From: Ruegeria marisrubri
GTDB lineage: Bacteria; Pseudomonadota; Alphaproteobacteria; Rhodobacterales; Rhodobacteraceae
Assembly: GCF_001507595.1 (NCBI RefSeq)
Contig: NZ_LQBQ01000012.1
Location: 62,001 to 126,000 of the forward strand
Reading direction: 5' to 3'
DNA length: 64,000 bases
The stretch's first letter is position 1. Each line of letters opens with the position of its first letter. A program made the translations under genes and the position numbers. Below, one piece after another: positions 746 to 6,737 of this stretch. The notes beneath the pieces are model-generated. The model searched no databases and was not told the DNA's origin. It saw only the letters and a list, made by a program, of their open reading frames with translations.

Positions 746-761
746 TTCTGTCTAGACAGAA
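746..761. promoter_or_regulatory. Perfect 16-bp palindrome, probable TetR operator
   Basis: The sequence TTCTGTCTAGACAGAA is a perfect inverted repeat with no spacer. It lies 50 bases before the ATG of the GcvT-domain dehydrogenase. The operon it precedes encodes a TetR-family repressor, and TetR operators are commonly palindromes of 15-20 bp near the promoter, so this is the best candidate operator. No second copy was noticed in the window. The assignment to the regulator is inference. Confidence 0.5.
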
Positions 762-810
762 GTGAACAGTGCTACTAGCGTCCTTTTGGAATCATCCAGG
801 GGAGGATCGG

Positions 811-3213
811 ATGAAATCCCAATATCGTGTTGTGGTCATCGGGGGCGGCGTCGTTGGTGCCTCGGTTCTGTATCATCTGGCCAAGTTCGGCTGGTCGGAT
901 GTGGTCATGCTGGAGCGCCGGCGGCTGGCCTCGGGGTCGTCGTGGCATGCGGCGGGGGGCATCCACGCGCTGAACGCCGATCCGAACATGGCGGCGCTGC
1001 AGGCCTATACGATCGACCTGCTGAGCGAGATCGAAAAGGAATCGGGCCAGAATATCGGCCTGCACATGACCGGCGGCCTGACGCTGGCCGGAACCCCCGA
1101 ACGGTGGGAGTGGTTGCAGGCGAATTACCGCATCTTCCAGTCCATCGGCATCGAGGATTGCGAATTGCTGTCCCCGGAAGAGGCGCAGAAACGCTGCCCG
1201 ATCATGTCCACCGACGGCATTTTGGGCGCGATGTGGGCCGACCGCGAGGGGTATATCGACACCACGGGCACCGTGCAGGCCTATGCCAGTGCCGCCAAAA
1301 AGCGCGGGGCGGAATACTACGAGGAAACCAAGGTCGAGGAACTGATCCAGACCGCCGATGGCTGGCAGGTGGTGACGGACAGGGGCACGATCACCTGCGA
1401 ACATGTGGTCAACGCCGCCGGCCTGTGGGCCAAGCAGGTGGGACGCATGGCAGGGGTCGAACTGCCGGTCTCTCCGCTGAAACACCACTATCTGATCACC
1501 GACACGGTGCCCGAGGTCGCAGCGGCCGATTTCGAGATGCCGATGACCGTGGATCTCGAGGGCTTCACCTACATGCGGCAGGACCAGAAGGGTGTTCTGG
1601 TCGGCATCTACGAGGTTGATCATGAACACTGGGCCATGGACGGCGCGCCGTGGAACTATGGCGAGGAGCTGTTTCAGGAACAGCTGGACCGCATCGAGAA
1701 CGAGCTGACGCTGGGCTTCGAACGCTATCCGGCGATCCAGAACGTTGGCATCAAGACATGGGTGAACGGCGCTTTCACCTTCTCACCCGACGGCAACCCT
1801 CTGGTCGGTCCGGTGCCGGGCAAGCGTGGCTATTGGACTGCCTGCGCAGTCATGGCCGGGTTCCTGCAGGGGGGCGGCGTCGGCAAGACGCTGGCCGAAT
1901 GGATGATCCATGGCGAGCCCGAGGCCGACGCCTGGCCGATGGACGTGGCGCGCTATGGCGATTATGCGCAGAACAAGCGCTACATCCGCGAGACCACCGG
2001 CCAGTTCTATTCTCGCCGCTTCGTAATGACCTATCCGAACGAGCAACTGCCCGCTGGACGACCGCTGAAAATGTCGCCGGCCCATGACGCCATGACCGAG
2101 GCGGGCTGCAAATGGGGCGTCAGCTGGGATCTCGAGGTGCCGCTCTATTTCGCGCCCAAGGGGTTCGAGGAAACGCCGACGCTCAAACGCTCGAACGCCT
2201 TCGACATCGTGGCCGAGGAATGCCGCACCATCCGTGAAGGCGTGGGGCTGATGGACATCACCGGGTTCTCGCGGTTCGAGGTCTCAGGGCCCAATGCGGA
2301 ACTGTGGCTTGACAAGGTGATGGCCTCGAAACTGCCGGGACCGGGCCGCGCGAAACTTGCGCCGATGCTGGGCGAGAACGGGCGGCTCAAGGGCGACCTG
2401 ACCGTACTGAACTGGGGCGATGGCACCTGGTGGATCATGGGCAGCTATTACCTGCGGGCCTGGCACATGCGCTGGTTCGACGATCACATGATCGACGGCG
2501 TACAGGTGCGCGACCTGGGCGAGGAGGTCTGCGGCTTTGCCGTGGTCGGCCCGAAATCGCAGGCGGTTGTCGAGAAACTGGCCGAGCAGGACATTTCCTC
2601 GCTCAAATTCATGGGCTGCGGCGATTTCGACATCGGCCTCGTGCGCGCCCGCGTGGCGCGCATGTCGGTCACCGGCGAGAAAGGGTATGAGATCAACTGC
2701 CGCTACGGCGACCACATCGCCCTGCGCCGCGCGCTGCTCGAGGCCGGGGCCAGCGAAGGCATCCGCGAATGCGGCTTCAACGCGATGCTGTCCACGCGGC
2801 TTGAGAAAAGCTTTGGCATCTGGTCGGCCGAGTTCACCCAGGCCTACACGCCCGGCATGACCGGCATGGACCGCTGGATCGACTGGACCAAGGACTTCGT
2901 CGGCAAGGACGCGGCTCTGGCCGAGCGTGAGGGCAACGGCCCGGCGCAGGTTCAGGTGACGCTCGAGGTCGACGCGCTGGATGCGGATGCCAGCGGGTAT
3001 GAACCCGTCTGGGCCGGCGGTCAGCGCGTGGGCTTCGTGACCTCGGGCGGGTATGGCCATTACACCGGCAAGTCGCTGGCCATGGCGCTGGTGGACCGCG
3101 ACAAGGCGCAGCCAGGCACCGAACTATCGGTGCACGTGGTTGGGGTCGAGCGGCCTGCGCGGGTGATCGCGCCGTCGCCCTATGACCCCGAGGGCAAGGC
3201 GATGCGGGGCTGA
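811..3213 (+). CDS. Dimethylglycine/sarcosine dehydrogenase-like FAD protein with GcvT domains
   Basis: An 800-residue protein built like the DMGDH/SARDH family: an N-terminal FAD oxidoreductase domain with the dinucleotide motif GGGVVGASV (about residues 11-19), then a short FAO_M-like region, then the folate-binding GcvT domain pair in the C-terminal half. The segment SGSSWHAAGG (His46) matches the site where SARDH/DMGDH attach FAD covalently to histidine. Family members oxidatively N-demethylate a methylated amine and pass the C1 unit to tetrahydrofolate. The ATG at 811 is chosen because GGAGGA lies 5 bases before it; a GTG at 769 in the same frame lacks this. Two bases separate it from the MttB-like gene, so the two are surely co-transcribed. 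The substrate is unknown. Confidence 0.88.
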   Translation: MKSQYRVVVIGGGVVGASVLYHLAKFGWSDVVMLERRRLASGSSWHAAGGIHALNADPNMAALQAYTIDLLSEIEKESGQNIGLHMTGGLTLAGTPERWEWLQANYRIFQSIGIEDCELLSPEEAQKRCPIMSTDGILGAMWADREGYIDTTGTVQAYASAAKKRGAEYYEETKVEELIQTADGWQVVTDRGTITCEHVVNAAGLWAKQVGRMAGVELPVSPLKHHYLITDTVPEVAAADFEMPMTVDLEGFTYMRQDQKGVLVGIYEVDHEHWAMDGAPWNYGEELFQEQLDRIENELTLGFERYPAIQNVGIKTWVNGAFTFSPDGNPLVGPVPGKRGYWTACAVMAGFLQGGGVGKTLAEWMIHGEPEADAWPMDVARYGDYAQNKRYIRETTGQFYSRRFVMTYPNEQLPAGRPLKMSPAHDAMTEAGCKWGVSWDLEVPLYFAPKGFEETPTLKRSNAFDIVAEECRTIREGVGLMDITGFSRFEVSGPNAELWLDKVMASKLPGPGRAKLAPMLGENGRLKGDLTVLNWGDGTWWIMGSYYLRAWHMRWFDDHMIDGVQVRDLGEEVCGFAVVGPKSQAVVEKLAEQDISSLKFMGCGDFDIGLVRARVARMSVTGEKGYEINCRYGDHIALRRALLEAGASEGIRECGFNAMLSTRLEKSFGIWSAEFTQAYTPGMTGMDRWIDWTKDFVGKDAALAEREGNGPAQVQVTLEVDALDADASGYEPVWAGGQRVGFVTSGGYGHYTGKSLAMALVDRDKAQPGTELSVHVVGVERPARVIAPSPYDPEGKAMRG

Positions 3214-3215
3214 TC

Positions 3216-4760
3216 GTGGCGGCGCGGGGCAGGGATCGCCGACGGCGCGGCCGGGGCGCGGAGGCCGCACCCGCGACCCAACGGAATGTGAATTATCGCC
3301 AGTTGCGCAACCCGTTTCCGGTGATGGAGGTCTTTCCGGCCGACCAGATCGCCGACATACACGAAACCGCGCTGCGCACATTGGAGGAGCTGGGCGTCAA
3401 GGTCCTGCTGCCCGAGGCGCGACGCCTCTTTGCCGCCGCCGGGGCGCGGGTGGATGAGGCCAGCGAGATGGTGTTCATCGGCCGCGATCTGGTCGAGGCC
3501 GCGGTGGCCTCGGCCCCGAAATCCATCGCCTGCCGGGCCGGGGCGCGGCATCGCGACTTCACGCTGGAGCTGGGCAGCCTTGTGTTCCAGCCCGGTGCGG
3601 GCGCGCCCAATGCCACCGATCTGGAGCGCGGTCGCCGCCCGGCCAGTGGACAGGATTACCTCGAGTTCCTGAAACTCACCCATCATTTCGACGTGTTCCA
3701 GATGATCTCGCCGCAGGTCGAGCCGCAGGACGTGCCCACACACCTGCGCCACTATTTCACCACGCAGGCGCAGATGGAACTGACCGACAAGTTCCCGTTC
3801 TTCTTCTCGCGCGGCACGCCTCAGGTGATGGACTGCTTCGAGATGCTGGCGGTCGCGCGGGGCCTGTCCGACGATGATTTCCGCGCCCGGCCGCATTGCT
3901 ACACCATCATCAACACCAACAGCCCGCGCACGCTGGACATTCCGATGGCGCAGGGGCTGATCGACTTTGCCCGCCACGGGCAGATGTCGATCATCACGCC
4001 GTTCACGCTGATGGGGGCGATGGCACCGATCACGGTTGCGGGCGCGATCACACTTTCGCATGCAGAAGCACTGGCGGCGCTGACCCTGACCCAACTGGCA
4101 AAACCCGGCGCGCCGGTCTGCTATGGCACGTTTACCAGCAACGTGGACATGAAATCCGGCGCCCCGGCCTTTGGCACGCCCTCGCATTTCCAGGCCTCGC
4201 TGGCAGCCGGGCAACTGGCCCGCCATCTGGGCCTGCCGTGGCGGTCGGCGGCTGGGTCGGCCTCGAACGCCAATGACGTGCAGGCCGCCAATGAAAACCA
4301 GTTCGGGCTATGGGGCTGCCTGATGGCAGGGGCCACGGTGATCATCCATTCGGCCGGGTGGCTCGAAGGCGGGCTGACCGTGTCCTTTGAAAAGCTGGTC
4401 TGCGATGCCGAGGTGTTGAACATGGTGGCCGAGCTATGCGCGGGGGCGCAGGCCGGGCGGGCCGAGATTGGCTTTGACACCGCCTTGCGCGAGGTCGAGC
4501 CCGGCGGCCATTTCTTTGCCACCAGCCAGACGATGGAGCGCTACACCACCGAATTCTATGAACCGCACCTGCATGACTATGCCAATTTCGGCACCTGGGC
4601 CGAACGCGGATCGGTCGATGCGAACCACCGGGCCACTGCGGTCTGGCGCGACATCCTGGCCAATTTCGAGCCACCCGCGCAGGACCAGCCTGGGCTGGAT
4701 GCCATGCGCGACTTCATTGCCCGCCGAACCGCCGAGGGCGGCGCGCCGCCGGAGAGTTGA
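3216..4760 (+). CDS. MttB-family (trimethylamine methyltransferase-like) protein, non-pyrrolysine
   Basis: A 514-residue protein of the COG5598/MttB family. Archaeal MttB proteins carry an in-frame amber codon read as pyrrolysine; here the frame is open throughout with no TAG, so it belongs to the non-pyrrolysine group, whose few characterised members move a methyl group from quaternary amines such as glycine betaine or carnitine to a corrinoid protein. No corrinoid protein gene lies in this operon. The GTG at 3216 follows the previous stop by two bases. The N-terminal ~25 residues are Arg/Ala/Gly rich and unlike the family, so the real start may lie slightly inside. The partner flavoproteins suggest methylamine-type demethylation in an aerobe. 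Confidence 0.85.
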   Translation: MAARGRDRRRRGRGAEAAPATQRNVNYRQLRNPFPVMEVFPADQIADIHETALRTLEELGVKVLLPEARRLFAAAGARVDEASEMVFIGRDLVEAAVASAPKSIACRAGARHRDFTLELGSLVFQPGAGAPNATDLERGRRPASGQDYLEFLKLTHHFDVFQMISPQVEPQDVPTHLRHYFTTQAQMELTDKFPFFFSRGTPQVMDCFEMLAVARGLSDDDFRARPHCYTIINTNSPRTLDIPMAQGLIDFARHGQMSIITPFTLMGAMAPITVAGAITLSHAEALAALTLTQLAKPGAPVCYGTFTSNVDMKSGAPAFGTPSHFQASLAAGQLARHLGLPWRSAAGSASNANDVQAANENQFGLWGCLMAGATVIIHSAGWLEGGLTVSFEKLVCDAEVLNMVAELCAGAQAGRAEIGFDTALREVEPGGHFFATSQTMERYTTEFYEPHLHDYANFGTWAERGSVDANHRATAVWRDILANFEPPAQDQPGLDAMRDFIARRTAEGGAPPES

Positions 4761-4761
4761 G

Positions 4762-5436
4762 ATGAGCAACAAACCCATCCTGCATCGTGACGACCCCAAG
4801 GCCGAGCCGCTGGTCGGCAACGTCAAGGTCACGCGCGACGACTGGCTGAACGTGGCGATGGACGTGCTGATCTCGGACGGGGTCGAGCAGGTCAAGGTGC
4901 TGAACCTGGCCGATCGCATGGCGGTGTCTCGGTCCTCATTCTATTGGTACTTCAAATCCCGGCAGCAGTTGCTGGACGCGCTGCTGGATCGCTGGCAGGC
5001 CACAAACACCGCCGCCCTGATCGCGCAGGCCGAGGCCCCGGCCGAGACCATCACCGCCGCCGTCTGCAACGTGCATCACTGCGTGGTCAATCCGGACCTG
5101 TTCGACACCGCCCTTGATTTCGCGGTGCGCGACTGGGCGCGGCGCTCGGGCAAGGTGCGCCGGATGCTGGATCAGTCCGACGCGCGCCGGCTGGAGGCGC
5201 TGAAACGGATGTTCATGCGCTTCGGCTACGAGGAGTTGGAGGCGGTCACCCGCGCCCGGGTGCTGTACTACATGCAGATCGGCTACGATCTGGCGCAACT
5301 GAACGAGCCGGTGGAATTCCGGCTCAAGCTGCTGCCCTATTACCTGCTGGTGTTCACCGGAGTTCAAGGGCGGCCCGAGGAAATCGAAGCGTTCACCAAC
5401 TATGCCAAGCGGTTCTGGGAGGGAGAAGAGACATGA
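4762..5436 (+). CDS. TetR-family transcriptional regulator
   Basis: A 224-residue repressor with an N-terminal helix-turn-helix at about residues 28-72 (MAVSRSSFYWYFKSR is the recognition-helix region typical of TetR) and a C-terminal ligand domain without a recognisable subfamily. The ATG at 4762 has GGAGAG 6 bases upstream and sits one base after the stop of the MttB-like gene; its own stop overlaps the next start (ATGA), so it is translationally coupled inside the operon. It most likely controls the operon it sits in, through the palindrome at 746-761, in response to the operon's substrate. That link is inference. Confidence 0.9.
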   Translation: MSNKPILHRDDPKAEPLVGNVKVTRDDWLNVAMDVLISDGVEQVKVLNLADRMAVSRSSFYWYFKSRQQLLDALLDRWQATNTAALIAQAEAPAETITAAVCNVHHCVVNPDLFDTALDFAVRDWARRSGKVRRMLDQSDARRLEALKRMFMRFGYEELEAVTRARVLYYMQIGYDLAQLNEPVEFRLKLLPYYLLVFTGVQGRPEEIEAFTNYAKRFWEGEET

Positions 5437-6737
5437 GCAAGCCGGATGCAATCATCATCGGAACCGGCGTGATCGGCGCGGCCGTCGCCTTCGAGATGGC
5501 CAAGGCCGGCTGGAAAACCCTCTCGCTGGACCGCAACGCGCAGGTGGGGCATGGCTCGACCGCCGGGTCCTGCGCGATCATCCGGATGCATTATTCCACC
5601 TTCGACGGCACCGCCTTTGCGTGGGAGGGCTATCACTACTGGCGCGACTGGGCCGAGTATCTGGGGCTGCCCGAAGGGGCCGATCTGGCGCAGTTCCGCG
5701 AGACGGGGTGCCTTGTGATGAAGACCGAGGCCAACGGCCACCTGGCAAAGCACATGAAATACAGCGCCGAGTTGGATTGCCCCTTCGAGGAATGGACGGC
5801 CGAGCAGATTCTCGACCGCCTGCCGATCTACTCTCTGGAAAGTTTTGCCCCTGCCAAGCGCATGGACGACCCGGAGTTCGGCCAGCCGAACGGGGCGCGG
5901 ATGGGCGGCGGGGTCTATTGGCCGCAGGCGGGCTATGTCACCGATCCGGCCCTGTCGGCGCAGAACCTGCTGGACGCGGCCAAGTTGCATGGGGCAGAGG
6001 TTCGCACCGGGGCGGAGGTCGTCGAAATCCTGCAGGAAGGTGGCAAGGTCGCGGGCGTCCGGCTGGCCTCTGACGAGGAAATTCATGCGCCCGTGGTGAT
6101 CAACGTGGCCGGCCCGGGATCGTCGATCATCAACCGCATGGCCGGGGTGCTGGATGACATGACCATCGAAACCCGCCCGCTGCGGCAGGAGGTCGTGCAT
6201 GTTCCCGCGCCCGAAGGGTTCGACTTCGAGCATGACGGAACGATCGTCTCGGACAGCGATATCGCCTGCTACTGCCGGCCCGAACACGGCAACCACATCC
6301 TGGTCGGCTCGGAAGATCCCGAATGCGACCCGCATCAGTGGTGCGAGGATGACATCCATTACAACCACGACTTCACCGACCAGTGGACGACGCAGGCGAT
6401 GCGCTATGCGCAGCGGGTGCCGTCGCTGGGTATCTCGTCAAGGATGCGAGGGGTGGTCGATCTGTATGACGCCTCGACCGATTGGATCCCGATCTATGAC
6501 AAATCCAGCCTGCCGGGCTTCTACATGGCCTGCGGCACCAGCGGGAACCAATACAAGAACGCGCCGATCGCGGGCAAGATGATGGCCGCGCTGGTCGAGT
6601 ATTGCGAGGGCGGGGCGGATCACGACGCCCAGCCCCTGCAATTCGAACTGCCCTATATCAAACGCACCATCGACGTGGGCTTTTATTCCCGCAAACGGCC
6701 CATCAACGCCGAAAGCAGCTTTTCGGTTCTGGGTTAG
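5433..6737 (+). CDS. FAD-dependent oxidoreductase (DAO superfamily)
   Basis: A 434-residue flavoprotein with the Rossmann dinucleotide motif GTGVIGAAVAFEMAKAG (about residues 10-26) and the glycine-rich C-terminal FAD segment GFYMACGTSGNQYKNAP. It resembles the beta-subunit/monomeric sarcosine oxidase and DMGDH catalytic domain but lacks GcvT domains. The start overlaps the TetR stop by 4 bases (ATGA), and GGGAGG is well placed upstream. With the first gene of the operon it gives two amine-type oxidases around one methyltransferase; it could act on the product of the first demethylation. Its stop overlaps the convergent IOR stop by four bases. Confidence 0.88.
   Translation: MSKPDAIIIGTGVIGAAVAFEMAKAGWKTLSLDRNAQVGHGSTAGSCAIIRMHYSTFDGTAFAWEGYHYWRDWAEYLGLPEGADLAQFRETGCLVMKTEANGHLAKHMKYSAELDCPFEEWTAEQILDRLPIYSLESFAPAKRMDDPEFGQPNGARMGGGVYWPQAGYVTDPALSAQNLLDAAKLHGAEVRTGAEVVEILQEGGKVAGVRLASDEEIHAPVVINVAGPGSSIINRMAGVLDDMTIETRPLRQEVVHVPAPEGFDFEHDGTIVSDSDIACYCRPEHGNHILVGSEDPECDPHQWCEDDIHYNHDFTDQWTTQAMRYAQRVPSLGISSRMRGVVDLYDASTDWIPIYDKSSLPGFYMACGTSGNQYKNAPIAGKMMAALVEYCEGGADHDAQPLQFELPYIKRTIDVGFYSRKRPINAESSFSVLG

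Follow-up and report, generated by a model that had tools for sequence, protein, structure and literature searches.

Gene content and layout of the operon

The window, i.e., the whole stretch of DNA that we analyzed, is 64,000 nucleotides long and corresponds to C12:62001-126000 of the Ruegeria marisrubri source genome (G000; 4.0 Mb in 39 contigs). Near its start, four genes are packed together on the forward strand. The first (811-3213, + strand) encodes a DMGDH-like flavoprotein in which profile search recognized DAO, FAO_M, GCV_T, and GCV_T_C domains in this order, placing it in the DMGDH/DMGO family. It is followed by a non-pyrrolysine MttB-superfamily methyltransferase gene with a GTG start (3216-4760, +; PF06253, 656 bits) and, both assigned by profile search, by a TetR-family regulator gene (4762-5436, +), which is a member of the conserved three-gene core described below, and a DAO-type FAD oxidoreductase gene (5433-6737, +; FAD oxidase hereafter). 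The successive junctions are a 2-base gap, a 1-base gap, and a 4-base overlap, the window mttB has zero in-frame TAG codons, and no corrinoid protein gene was found within the four-gene operon. The sequence-only reading that we followed up had described the four genes, their spacing, and the missing pyrrolysine codon correctly; of its layout only the start of the first gene at 746 has to be changed, as the ATG is at 811 and 746 coincides with a perfect 16-bp palindrome (746-761; strand not applicable), a candidate TetR operator 49 bp 5' of that ATG. Our searches of the open-licence PMC literature gave no description of this operon, in keeping with the earlier view that the substrate and the MttB-like reaction of such operons are undescribed.

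A convergent gene, encoded on the other strand from 10141 to 6734, faces the end of the operon; it has POR and DUF6537 domains, and we take it to be of the indolepyruvate-oxidoreductase type. Divergently upstream (L013:9966-17191) are oligopeptide-type ABC transporter and CoA-transferase genes; the transporter recurs by the operon in Ruegeria loci. We considered the transporter and a GST gene as members of the system and set them aside: GST and the transporter's binding protein, which adjoin the operon in Ruegeria, did not turn up in the other loci. The upstream CoA-transferase and an ATPase were likewise dropped, their matches elsewhere being weak and general (23-38%).

Among solved structures, the DMGDH-like protein is closest in sequence to mammalian DMGDH (482 bits), followed by the dimethylglycine oxidase of Arthrobacter (252 bits), and it matches them over nearly the full length. 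It carries the motifs WHAAG at residue 45 and GDLTV at residue 528, which would mark covalent FAD binding and folate binding, respectively, and relatives of this protein have been solved with folates. The source genome encodes seven other FAO_M proteins, 31-47% identical to it. Two of these DMGDH paralogues are encoded at a locus of their own, together with a GbdR-like regulator (115 bits) and a homocysteine-methyltransferase-like protein (141 bits), both of which score under their cut-offs; this locus is probably the ordinary glycine-betaine lower pathway, and SPO3400 and SPO3396 are named for steps of this pathway in the available text of PMC4744692.

Conservation of the gene set

In a genus sample of 37 genomes, the source genome included, MttB is present at an identity of at least 87% in 33 and at 69-70% in three (G002, G017, G030), and G018 has merely a 42% paralogue. 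The DMGDH orthologue (at least 85%) occurs in 36 of the 37, the same 36 as MttB, with G027 matched partly, and by coordinates the two genes are neighbors in all 36 genomes having either orthologue. The FAD oxidase is found in 33 of the 37; it is missing in G003, G014, G022, and G027 and retained in G018, where DMGDH, MttB, and TetR are jointly missing and 336 bp separate the GST gene from that of the FAD oxidase (L156:9674-11944).

A wider sample comprised the best 80 of a longer list of MttB relatives, 57 of them with MttB at 60% identity or more. Of the 56 such loci that extend far enough upstream, 49 have DMGDH directly before MttB, or 50 when L104 with its partly duplicated MttB is counted in; seven of the 56 have no DMGDH by the rule of our script among the matches listed, L104 being one of them only on account of that duplication. 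With room downstream, TetR follows within 400 bp in 41 of 55 loci and the FAD oxidase occurs in 17 of 55 (MttB at least 60%, among the matches listed). In the 23 more distant loci among the matches listed, DMGDH at 60% or more is upstream in two, and several have a 46-47% DMGDH relative beside MttB. The same gene order recurs beyond Ruegeria among the loci listed, and in an Acidimicrobiales MAG (L128) an FAD oxidase (48%) and a TetR (47%) are divergent from a 49% MttB. The conserved core is DMGDH-MttB-TetR, and the FAD oxidase stands outside it. The earlier view that these genes form a unit is thus supported, and the set is found in other Rhodobacteraceae as well; the core of the proposed four-gene unit holds, whereas the FAD oxidase is no constant member. 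The MttB-like gene, whose absence from most homologous operons had been named as fatal to the proposal, is adjacent to DMGDH wherever the latter occurs in the genus sample. That the genes are chance neighbors with no common pathway is scarcely credible: it could draw on the FAD oxidase missing in four of 37 genus genomes, and it is contradicted by the 36/36 adjacency, by adjacency across genera, and by the joint absence in G018.

In G002 (L158), DMGDH is 95% identical to that of the window and nested among Ruegeria, and MttB is 70% identical and groups with those of R. pomeroyi and R. spongiae; judged from these placements, it seems that mttB was exchanged in place inside an otherwise conserved operon. 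Ruegeria as one clade is rejected for MttB (AU p 1.3e-4) and also for DMGDH (p 2e-6), and therefore the observation of a foreign mttB rests on G002. Besides this clearest case, the mttB genes of L093 and L086 also come from another lineage, the rest of the operon being conserved. MttB relatives at about 80-82% identity are found on Leisingera plasmids (H1-H11). In a MAG locus (L104:8019-10299), a partial tandem duplication has left MttB as two overlapping partial pieces (query residues 1-351 and 70-490), flanked by DMGDH and TetR.

The MttB-like protein and its altered loop

The window MttB covers profile positions 3-500 of the 500 in PF06253, as a superfamily member does, and scores 280 bits against TIGR02369 (pyrrolysine trimethylamine methyltransferase; cut-off 525), well outside that family. 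Its closest named relative among the matches listed is from Ruegeria arenilitoris HKCCA0515 (97% identity over 490 residues), and 22 relatives among the matches listed, at 49% identity or more, come from Alphaproteobacteria, Gammaproteobacteria, unplaced Proteobacteria, and Acidimicrobiales. The predicted model (mean pLDDT 74, loop 348-355 under 50) superimposes on 9yce and 4yyc with a TM of 0.81 and on Methanosarcina barkeri MttB chains with 0.78-0.80. In a quick maximum-likelihood tree of 38 rows, for which the program gave long-branch warnings, the window MttB falls in a clade with its paralogue C34_17k and with Rp_L146 (SH-aLRT 100), separate from Desulfitobacterium hafniense MtgB, from Sinorhizobium meliloti 4YYC with C1_801k, and from C1_604k with Rp_L147. 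It groups neither with D. hafniense MtgB nor with the Ruegeria paralogue near mtgC (C1_604k/Rp_L147 type), which is probably SPO2134, and by this phylogeny it would be a member of an uncharacterised clade.

At the pyrrolysine loop of MttB, the window clade has a one-residue gap, and none of its 25 rows has a lysine (24 have Asn, one has Pro), in contrast to the 13 of 13 non-clade rows compared, which have Lys four columns past the Pyl334 column; this loop lysine is a trait common to the compared non-clade rows rather than an established definition of the MtgB type. Asn351 is invariant across our 23-sequence MttB alignment. In a clade without the loop lysine, the chemistry or the partner contact of the window MttB may therefore differ. 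A stronger version, in which the protein with its altered loop has lost or changed its methyltransferase chemistry and plays another role in the operon, would account for the gap and for the lysine lost from all 25 clade rows; we regard it as unlikely, given that the 22 listed relatives of several phyla or classes, Acidimicrobiales included, retain the protein at no less than 49% identity, that it co-occurs with MtgC (see below), and that the columns of MttB Tyr364 and Gly372 align with His378 and Gly386 of the window MttB. Tyr364 and Gly372 are residues named in the available text of PMC9842639.

In R. pomeroyi SZCCDBG043, the window-MttB orthologue is at C1:808228 and mtgC at about C1:2100326-2101021, i.e., ~1.3 Mb apart. 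According to the accessible part of PMC12478193, two R. pomeroyi MttBs, SPO2108 and SPO2134, are increased on glycine betaine, choline, or carnitine; together with SPO2160 (mtgC) they span no more than 52 gene numbers. Because of this difference in distance, the orthologue is probably neither SPO2108 nor SPO2134, if the gene order of DSS-3 matches that of SZCCDBG043. Rp_L147, 28 kb from mtgC, fits SPO2134, and by distance no MttB in SZCCDBG043 fits SPO2108.

A corrinoid protein encoded elsewhere in the genome

PF06253 matches eight stretches of the source genome, which amount to seven MttB genes since two of the stretches fall in one C23 gene; up to seven PF06253 ORFs per genome are given in the available text of PMC12478193. 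PF02310 (B12-binding) matches three places, and PF02607 lies alongside in one only, a free-standing MtgC-type corrinoid protein of 232 residues (C1:576768-577355) with both B12 domains and the sequence DIHDIG at the DxHxxG motif. The other two matches are inside frames of 726 and 774 residues. The sole notable neighbor of the MtgC-type gene, one gene away, encodes a DUF1638 protein of 217 residues. C1 also encodes the only RACo/RamA-type protein of the genome (matched at 847723). The match of a 354-residue pterin-binding protein starts 1.8 kb from it (C1:850301), and a second pterin-binding match (C1:286895) is presumably FolP. A partner-type corrinoid protein, as a corrinoid-dependent quaternary-amine system requires, is encoded in this genome; the sequence-only reading had pointed out that the operon itself has none. 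Its proposal of a quaternary-amine demethylation operon is supported, and its mechanism without a corrinoid is not.

For co-occurrence, MtgC was searched in 45 genomes from the best 80 MttB loci and in 24 class-level control genomes. It is present (E 2e-107 or better, at least 73% identity) in 43 of the 45 genomes with a relative of the window MttB among the matches listed; in the other two no match of this grade was found, G065 (L069) giving no hit and G099 (L124) weaker hits only. Among the controls, G037 and G051 have an MtgC-grade protein, ten have weaker hits only (E 5e-37 to 8e-23; for nine of these the hit falls in a frame of at least 880 residues, as in MetH), and twelve have none. PF06253 was detected in three of the 24 controls (G037, G051, and, as fragments, G043), and an MtgC-grade protein in none of the 21 controls without MttB. 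As the 45 genomes were picked by window-MttB hits and both fully searched Ruegeria genomes have further MttBs, the test ties MtgC to the family and not to this gene alone.

Several MttB paralogues relying on one common, separately encoded corrinoid protein are described in the available text of both PMC12478193 and PMC8604678, so that an operon with no corrinoid gene of its own is what one would expect. In R. pomeroyi, mutants demonstrated MtgC and MtgD to be a shared hub of glycine-betaine demethylation and methionine synthesis, MtgC serving the demethylation from a separate locus by genetics (PMC12478193, accessible text). Most likely, the corrinoid partner of the present operon is likewise a shared protein encoded elsewhere in the genome. 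The proposal of the sequence-only reading, that methyl or formaldehyde units go directly to folate through the GcvT domains, can point to the absence of a corrinoid gene from the operon and to the GcvT domains of a protein whose relatives are solved with folates. However, the GcvT domain is accounted for by the DMGDH architecture, MtgC is encoded in the source genome and recurs in 43 of the 45 with MttB relatives, and the predicted MttB fold is that of corrinoid-dependent enzymes; we consider direct transfer highly improbable. According to the available text of PMC12366255, homocysteine can receive a methyl directly from betaine or DMSP, cobalamin-free, by the action of purified Phaeobacter inhibens Bmt, and therefore the cobalamin route is not the sole possible one in this family of bacteria.

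An exchangeable third oxidase

In five of the loci among the matches listed (L072, L073, L076, L087, L106), soxB occupies the position of the FAD oxidase, starting 20-32 bases past the TetR match. Overall, soxB occurs in nine of the best 80 loci (also L100, L103, L127, L132); none of the 26 control loci, a small set all from Ruegeria, has it. In L106, soxB scores 647 bits, soxD 95 (under the cut-off), and soxA 1041 (under the cut-off), and the fourth gene has no family match; in L104, gcvT, gcvH, and gcvP are among the genes after TetR. The window FAD oxidase lies far outside the sarcosine oxidase families (soxB 45 bits, cut-off 529; soxA_mon 48 bits, cut-off 480), and its model (pLDDT 56) is unusable beyond the general fold. 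The slot after TetR can be filled by an FAD oxidase or a sarcosine oxidase, and the soxB and glycine-cleavage genes of homologous loci suggest a last step that gives glycine or a similar amino acid.

The candidate TetR operator

The palindrome TTCTGTCTAGACAGAA at 746-761 is the sole match in the window at up to three mismatches, with 0.07 expected. Of 49 loci tested, 26 carry its decamer core TGTCTAGACA, at no more than one mismatch, within the 120 bp that precede DMGDH, versus 0.2% of shuffles. The core is found in 24 of 40 TetR-bearing versus two of nine TetR-less loci (Fisher p 0.064; L108, an incomplete locus, left out), and in 10 of 26 versus two of nine if Ruegeria is excluded (p 0.45). 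These Fisher tests are not significant; therefore, the conservation of the motif is statistically supported and its link to TetR is not, and we rejected operator presence as a proof of TetR binding. We also rejected the operator as a mark of co-regulation of mtgC, an outcome that the earlier reading had named as one that would refute it, since there is no copy within one mismatch in the 19 kb around mtgC. Between the GST and FAD oxidase genes of G018, no good operator match was found, the best remaining one having four mismatches; short pieces of its surroundings may persist there. The TAGACA half of the palindrome may double as a -35 element.

A model of stepwise demethylation

We observed which genes are present and how far they are conserved, that MtgC is encoded in the genome and co-occurs with MttB, that the third oxidase is exchangeable, and that there is an operator motif; the reactions, the MttB-MtgC contact, the substrate, and the binding of TetR are inferred. 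In our favored reading, to which we give a probability of roughly 0.7, the operon is a TetR-controlled cassette for the stepwise demethylation of a glycine-betaine-like trimethylammonium compound via the shared cobalamin hub of the cell. MttB would transfer one quaternary-amine methyl to Co(I)-MtgC supplied in trans, an MtgD-like pterin-binding protein would hand the methyl of MtgC on to tetrahydrofolate, and cobalamin would be re-reduced by RamA with DUF1638. The DMGDH-like protein would then oxidize the dimethyl product, its GcvT domain trapping the one-carbon unit on folate, and the FAD oxidase (SoxBDA in other genomes) would take the last methyl, so that the remaining amino acid would most likely be glycine or a close analogue. 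TetR would repress the operon from the palindrome at 746-761.

We favor this cassette because a single free-standing MtgC is encoded beside seven MttBs, together with DUF1638, RACo/RamA-type, and pterin-binding proteins; because MtgC is found in 43/45 genomes versus 0/21 controls without MttB; because the predicted fold of MttB matches MtgB and MttB; because DMGDH and MttB are adjacent in 36/36 genus genomes; because SoxB follows TetR in five loci and gcvTHP lies downstream in L104 (among the matches listed); because G018 loses DMGDH, MttB, and TetR together, has no good operator match, and keeps its FAD oxidase; and because there are precedents (PMC12478193 and PMC8604678, as far as their available texts go). 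Against it stand the absent loop lysine, an R. pomeroyi orthologue that is apparently not among the MttBs increased on betaine, choline, or carnitine, the separate GbdR-like locus with two DMGDH paralogues already in the genome, the lack of MtgC in 2/45 genomes, of DMGDH in 7/56 close loci, and of an operator copy near mtgC, and, by analogy, the demethylation of betaine without cobalamin by P. inhibens Bmt (PMC12366255, available text).

In a rival reading, the same machinery acts on neither glycine betaine nor a glycine-type betaine, and its substrate is a further N-methylated osmolyte such as a different amino-acid betaine, the clade being a new specificity within the MttB superfamily. The supported clade apart from D. 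hafniense MtgB, the 4YYC-like paralogue, and the probable SPO2134 paralogue, the loss of the loop lysine, the orthologue apparently outside the set increased on the three compounds (PMC12478193, available text), and the foreign-lineage mttB in the otherwise conserved G002 operon all speak for this; the sarcosine oxidase and glycine-cleavage genes by homologous operons point to a glycine product instead, and a true DMGDH is the nearest solved structure to the DMGDH-like protein. We hold this version to be a serious contender, a little short of an even chance. We are similarly tentative, and would rather bet slightly against it, about the window MttB being the founder of an uncharacterised branch of aerobic corrinoid-dependent methyltransferases, with a rebuilt loop and a non-glycine-betaine substrate, in which the DMGDH-MttB-TetR core plugs variable third oxidases and its own MttB variants into a single methionine-synthase corrinoid hub.

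If the cassette reading is true, the operon is a complete regulated cassette, and one cobalamin protein, common to methionine synthesis, serves several Ruegeria demethylation cassettes. Marine N-osmolyte turnover would then gain a substrate or a second glycine-betaine route, and the clade would be a natural test of the role of the MttB loop lysine.

Relation to known systems and further MttB paralogues

The closest known system is MtgB/MtgC/MtgD of R. pomeroyi, of the same genus, with the PF06253 family, an MtgC-type corrinoid protein with DUF1638, and RamA-type and MtgD-like proteins in trans (PMC12478193, accessible text); unlike there, the window MttB is in another clade than the probable SPO2134 and 4YYC-like paralogues and shares its operon with DMGDH, TetR, and a third oxidase. 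In Eubacterium limosum, the substrate-specific MtpB, MtcB, and MtyB share one corrinoid protein, MtqC, from a separate cluster; this organism is, however, an anaerobe, and the available text of the report describes no DMGDH-type or oxidase partner genes (PMC8604678). D. hafniense MtgB (2QNE, 9YCE) has the same fold by the predicted model (TM 0.81) at about 31% identity, its loop reading NDSK versus SASN with the one-residue gap in the window MttB.

The MttB paralogue on C23 (C23:155688-156857; L019:8617-9876) has 419 residues and is without ~112 profile positions (225-336) that are present in its R. pomeroyi relative L144; its barrel is therefore probably incomplete. It adjoins a divergent TetR gene and an FMN oxidoreductase. 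A further paralogue (L018:6176-9857) adjoins transporter genes and a large FMN oxidoreductase, which we take to be of the trimethylamine-dehydrogenase type, and is a candidate second demethylation cassette.
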